Under the pieces are notes generated by a model. The model did no database searches. It was not told the DNA's origin and saw only the letters and a program-made list of their open reading frames with translations. This document shows, piece by piece, positions 44,157 to 44,483 of a stretch of DNA of 52,547 nucleotides. This DNA comes from Thermincola carboxydiphila. GTDB lineage: Bacteria; Bacillota; Thermincolia; Thermincolales; UBA2595. Each line of letters starts with the position of its first letter. Position 1 is the first letter of the stretch. The position numbers and the translations under genes are program-made. The DNA is taken from the NCBI GenBank assembly GCA_016841725.1, contig JAENYP010000019.1:1-52547 (forward strand), read 5' to 3'.

Positions 44157-44483
44157 AAATACTGTTTTTCGCATATATTCAAACTTTAACTTCGGAAATG
44201 ACCTAGAGTATGGTTAGGTGTTGTGAATGATTTTCCTTGCACATCCGCCGCAAGAAATATTACCGCAATTCCGCTAAGCAAAGCCACGGACCGGAGCCAT
44301 GGATGGCGGAGCCGCCACTGAGCCACGGAAGGCGAATTGGCGGTTTAGTCCGTGGCTTTGCCAGGAACAAGGTTATATTTCTCCGGCGGCTGTGCGGAAA
44401 ATCAGTACAACAGCTAACCATATGCCATTTATGGTCATTTCCGGGAGAGTACAGTTTGAATATATTGTTGTCCATCAGTATTT
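44157..44483. repeat. 327-bp imperfect inverted duplication
   Basis: Left arm 44157-44291 and right arm 44348-44483 are inverted copies of about 135 bp with scattered mismatches and small indels, around a 56-bp centre. Matching blocks in order from the outside are AAATACTG, ATATATTCAAACT, CGGAAATGACC, TATGGTTAG, TGTTGT, TGATTTTCC, CCGCCG, GAAATAT and GCAAAGCCACGGAC. The right arm includes the last 16 codons of the DUF3786 gene. No transposase is present. Confidence 0.9.

Follow-up and report, generated by a model that had tools for sequence, protein, structure and literature searches.

A dispersed, mobile-type palindromic repeat with a TwoAYGGAY-like double hairpin at its tip, beside a DUF3786 gene of Thermincola carboxydiphila

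We analyzed a window of 52,547 nucleotides from the 3.88-Mb draft genome of T. carboxydiphila (40 contigs; G000 below), in which a long inverted duplication is flanked by a GGCT gene (PF06094, 43711-44142) and a DUF3786 gene (PF12654, 44435-45085), both on the minus strand. The element is almost certainly one copy of a dispersed mobile repeat, a non-coding palindrome. The explanation we favor on balance is that a mobile palindrome, itself non-coding and non-autonomous, sits at the 3′ end of the DUF3786 gene and has a double hairpin of the TwoAYGGAY type as its tip.

Imperfect inverted repeats span 44173-44465, the innermost arms lying 56 nt apart. Pairing is 94% between 44173-44188 and 44450-44465, 94% between 44209-44224 and 44407-44422, and 100% in the inner stem, where 44278-44291 (GCAAAGCCACGGAC) pairs with 44348-44361 (GTCCGTGGCTTTGC). 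As a single strand, the duplication folds at -91.6 kcal/mol vs. -38.6 ± 4.0 kcal/mol for 100 dinucleotide shuffles (z = -13.3), and no shuffle folded as well (0/100). The long imperfect inverted duplication with a 56-bp center reported in a preliminary description of this DNA is thus real, and the two observations named there as speaking against it, arms that evolved independently as terminators in relatives and comparable self-similarity in shuffled sequence, were not made. Its extent needed revision: the arms do pair over 44173-44465, but the repeated unit is 258 bp long (44190-44447, with ends CTTCGGAAATGACC and GGTCATTTCCGGGAG; plus strand, defined as the strand on which the tip reads AYGGAY), and the outermost 16-bp arms are flank particular to the window copy. 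Comparison of copies places the left arm at 44190-44277, its outermost ~60 bp being common to all copy types, and the right arm at 44362-44447. The DUF3786 gene does end within an arm, as had been described: its stop codon, TGA on the minus strand (44435-44437), is supplied by the right arm, and the protein is a few codons longer than in the same-genus genome G002.

A BLAST search of the region against its own genome returned 56 matches, from which 40 copies were delineated; a search with a second type of center and with the end pattern added ~10 more. Copies are also present in the same-genus genomes G001 and G002 and in the same-family genomes G003 and G005; G004 and G006 match the repeat in the center only, and no genome tested outside the family matched it. 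A sister species has dozens of copies, some of them at conserved sites; sister-species copies are 83-87% identical to the window copy. The exact tip pattern, searched in 84,980 species genomes (from which the window's own genome may have been left out), occurred only in HGW-Firmicutes-8 and in two MAGs labeled Thermincola ferriacetica, and had no match in IMG/VR viral contigs; we found nothing on point in the literature on Thermincola palindromes. The repeat has terminal inverted repeats, is multi-copy, non-coding, and short, as MITEs are, and the preliminary description was right that it is no IS or MITE with short ends but a palindromic element. A single local fold-back duplication of the DUF3786 end by template switching, also proposed there, is refuted as the source of these 258 bp, because the same sequence, center included, recurs at ~40-50 other loci and at conserved sister-species sites. 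As an account of the locus it is highly improbable; it may still apply to the outermost 16-bp arms, where 44450-44465 is the 3′ end of the DUF3786 coding sequence (almost identical in G002, whose locus has no element) and its inverted copy at 44173-44188 lies across the element (flank similarity 27 vs. a 99th percentile of 22).

The copies combine common outer arms of ~60 bp with one of two exchangeable centers. Type A copies (~258 bp), including the window copy, have two GGA-loop hairpins in the center. Type B copies (~310 bp) have a different multi-stem core that is conserved across genera; in an alignment of 54 distinct sequences it forms four stems, with 1211/1241 cells Watson-Crick and some compensated changes, and it had no credible match in Rfam. 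The type B center is a candidate new structured RNA. The core was also seen in three genera within palindromes of partly different arms (L162, L165, L166, L196, and others). At four orthologous occupied sites the element stays and the center type differs (L034/L116, L036/L114, L042/L124, and L051/L129). Short copies (89-167 bp) are often internal deletions, the corresponding sites in G002 being occupied by longer elements (L030, L031, L032, L044, and L052). Separately, GC-rich hairpins are inserted in tip-hairpin loops (L024 1037-1405 and its ortholog L133; L129), apparently palindromes nested in palindromes; at L024 both tip hairpins hold inserted hairpins that resemble each other.

The 56-bp center, previously taken as a spacer, is the informative part of the window copy, being a TwoAYGGAY-like double hairpin. 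TwoAYGGAY is a candidate RNA (Rfam RF01731; Weinberg 2010, PMC2864571) for which CsrA binding was proposed earlier (PMC4333381). RF01731 is the best Rfam hit of the window copy (44261-44375, plus strand, 27.2 bits, E = 0.029); this score is below the gathering score of 43, so we call the copy a relative of TwoAYGGAY and not a certified member, and a Rfam search at gathering thresholds missed the tip. Siblings in G000 (C25, 61105-61263; 43.1 bits), G002 (53.0 bits), and G004 (44.1 bits) reach the cutoff. Two tandem hairpins with AYGGAY-like loops occupy 44296-44333 in the window, namely GCC-ATGGAT-GGC (44296-44307) and GCC-ACGGAA-GGC (44322-44333), the second loop deviating from AYGGAY at its last base. 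Among 29 distinct tips, GGA is retained in 57/58 loops (first loop 28/29, second 29/29), and the second stem switches between GCC/GGC, GGC/GCC, and GTC/GAC with compensation. A relationship between the window tip and TwoAYGGAY is very likely.

The tips present paired GGA sites in hairpin loops, as expected of a CsrA-binding sRNA, and the host has CsrA (one csrA in G000). In a phylum sample of 299 genomes, csrA was found in 44/47 RF01731-positive genomes vs. 169/252 others (Fisher test, P = 8e-5, kinship ignored), and in complete genomes only, in 40/41 vs. 159/226 (kinship again ignored). Given transcription of the plus strand, a CsrA dimer would bind the paired A-N-GGA-N loops, in line with the TwoAYGGAY proposal (PMC4333381). 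We put forward CsrA binding as a possible function of the tip, tentatively and from sequence comparison.

RF01731 matches are often several per genome, counts that are lower bounds with no more than nine candidates scored in each genome, and most of the fetched examples lie within palindromes of ~200-350 bp. When the arms of 20 RF01731 copies from five genomes were compared, they matched in 47/66 within-genome comparisons and in 0/314 between-genome comparisons; G001 and G004 also hold palindromes with the same tip and other arms. This survey of relatives suggests that TwoAYGGAY in the phylum is generally carried by mobile palindromes at gene ends.

Element position relative to genes was assessed with simple ORF calls. 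Read on the neighbors' strand, a stop codon precedes the element start by a median distance of 10 nt in G000 and 7.5 nt in G002, and the element shows an orientation bias between co-directional genes of 23:7 (G000) and 22:3 (G002). In 14/16 type A copies between co-directional genes, AYGGAY reads on the strand opposite to that of the neighboring genes. This counts against a simple mRNA role: the loops are unlikely to act as part of the neighboring mRNA and would need a transcript of their own. Scans for promoters gave nothing beyond chance. Position just past stop codons, orientation bias, and the opposite AYGGAY strand are all compatible with an ordinary palindromic repeat resembling MITEs or ERIC, selfish or of slight use and located in gene 3′ regions, which would at most affect mRNA end formation or stability (e.g., through RNase III cleavage), its GGA loops reflecting common descent and not a protein site. 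Its terminal inverted repeats, high copy number, and non-coding nature agree with this, as does the ability of known MITEs to form long hairpins and influence transcripts (PMC2229807, PMC10969869). The same tip in palindromes with unrelated arms, GGA kept while stems change, and the association of RF01731 with csrA are, however, not expected of a neutral loop, and we regard the ordinary-repeat explanation as rather unlikely, if a serious contender.

Two further repeats were seen near the copies. A block of ~70 nt (AAAAACAAAAAGTCCAAGGCGTAAAGCCTTGAACATAAAGGAAATTCTATTTCCGAGAGACTTA) lies behind many of them, ahead of the next gene (L037 953-1023, L016 850-920, L054, and L057), and sometimes stands alone, e.g., before a probable GAPDH gene; an RNA model of it gave pairing changes that did not surpass those of shuffles, so we make no RNA claim for it. 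Another palindromic repeat (GGCAGATGTGTTCCGGA...) occurs downstream of several copies (L017, L028, L040, and L043; L139); at L139 in G002 it lies beside a terminator hairpin, and it is absent in G000 at L038.

Across 31 copies, the left arm resembles its own right arm more (50.7) than the right arms of other copies (42.4), a value reached in 0/20,000 permutations. Inverted similarity also runs past the element into the flanks (17.3 vs. 13.2, 0/20,000 permutations), and direct similarity of the flanks shows no extension beyond the element. A signature resembling that of template switching, as suggested earlier, is present, with arms covarying within a copy and the flanks of copies being inverted copies of each other. 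Insertion into a pre-existing hairpin was also considered for the palindromic flanks; for the window copy inverted copying is preferred because one of its flanks consists of coding sequence that is found in G002 as well, the other side not being polarizable. Selection for RNA pairing should leave more G:U than A:C on the transcribed strand; no such excess was seen on either strand (131 vs. 156; outer arms 49 vs. 63), which disfavors selection on RNA pairing and is a weak clue to mechanism. A hairpin of attenuator or terminator type, with arms kept paired by RNA selection in the neighboring mRNA, would fit the intercistronic position with its orientation bias and the conservation of some orthologous sites above their flanks (at L016/L119 the arms are 97-99% identical vs. 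~86% for the flanks). Besides the missing G:U excess, pairing that runs into copy-specific flanks and the large internal deletions tolerated at orthologous sites argue against this explanation, which we consider quite unlikely. Arm-to-arm DNA copying fits best and probably maintains the palindrome: template switching between arms during replication would keep the hairpin near perfect and extend it into the flanks. Replication template switching is known to repair and create stems by reverse-complement copying (PMC8794818); the process proposed here is the same, but we infer it from comparison of many copies, whereas single events were reconstructed there.

The clearest sign of insertion comes from a relative with another arm family. 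In G125 a TwoAYGGAY palindrome has on either side a terminator hairpin particular to the locus, the two being direct copies, e.g., CAAAAAACCCGCAGCTAGTTGCTGCGGGT and a version with a single change, and at the G156 site orthologous to L226 (L250, ~1775-1830) there is one terminator hairpin and no element. The pattern looks like insertion with duplication of the terminator; we found nothing on point in the literature on terminator-targeting duplications. Direct terminator-hairpin copies of 20-30 bp were noted around TwoAYGGAY palindromes at L226, L227, and L229-L231 (G125) and at L244 (G259). No direct flank repeats indicating target duplication were found for the window repeat family, one site, L053/L155, having an 8-bp repeat that may be a target duplication or may mark a deletion junction. 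A scan of the draft G000 assembly (40 contigs) with the end pattern revealed no gene evidently enclosed by two such ends and no transposase-bearing copy, i.e., no parental transposase with the same ends.

Among the relatives' loci there was no clean empty site for the window copy. The G002 and G001 loci were rejected as such: deletion is likely there because GGCT is also missing and remnants of it persist in G001 and G003. The GGCT gene is intact in the window; at the same place (L082, L084, and L081), G001 and G003 have only its 3′ remnant, and G002 has none of it. The G002 sites corresponding to L046 and L036a were likewise rejected as empty, since element remnants are present and indicate deletions.

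The favored explanation, a non-autonomous mobile palindrome with a TwoAYGGAY-type tip, would have copies spread through an activity acting in trans that favors gene ends and terminators. A wider scheme, which we offer as speculative and rather doubtful, places the TwoAYGGAY RNAs of Firmicutes at the tips of mobile palindromes, which would target terminators for insertion and duplicate them, undergo repair and extension by template switching, swap centers, and act as dispersed CsrA decoys. If this were true, the poorly conserved outer stem of an orphan candidate RNA would be explained as the arms of lineage-specific repeats, TwoAYGGAY would be recast as part of a mobile element, and the CsrA proposal for Firmicutes would become directly testable. 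The ~50 related palindromes per genome would also be a natural data set on whether long hairpins are kept near perfect by DNA copying or by RNA selection.

The element shares with MITEs and with ERIC, Correia, and RUP repeats (PMC2229807, PMC10969869) its small size, non-coding and intergenic nature, inverted repeats, multiple copies, long hairpins, and the occasional supply of a reading-frame end. It differs in exceeding their usual 100-200 bp, in an inverted repeat that covers nearly the whole element, in its exchangeable centers, and in that neither a TA target duplication nor a parental IS was found. REP/BIME palindromes with RAYT transposases (PMC2817692) are likewise palindromic, extragenic, and of high copy number, but REPs measure 20-40 bp and the window-type unit ~260-310 bp. 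Multi-copy or mobile behavior did not come up in the TwoAYGGAY papers that we consulted (PMC2864571, PMC4333381). The known TwoAYGGAY RNA and the window element share two adjacent hairpins with AYGGAY-type loops and an outer stem closing both, and same-genus siblings of the window copy pass the RF01731 cutoff; here, in contrast, arms of ~85 bp make the outer stem a long palindrome, of which there are ~50 copies with exchangeable centers.
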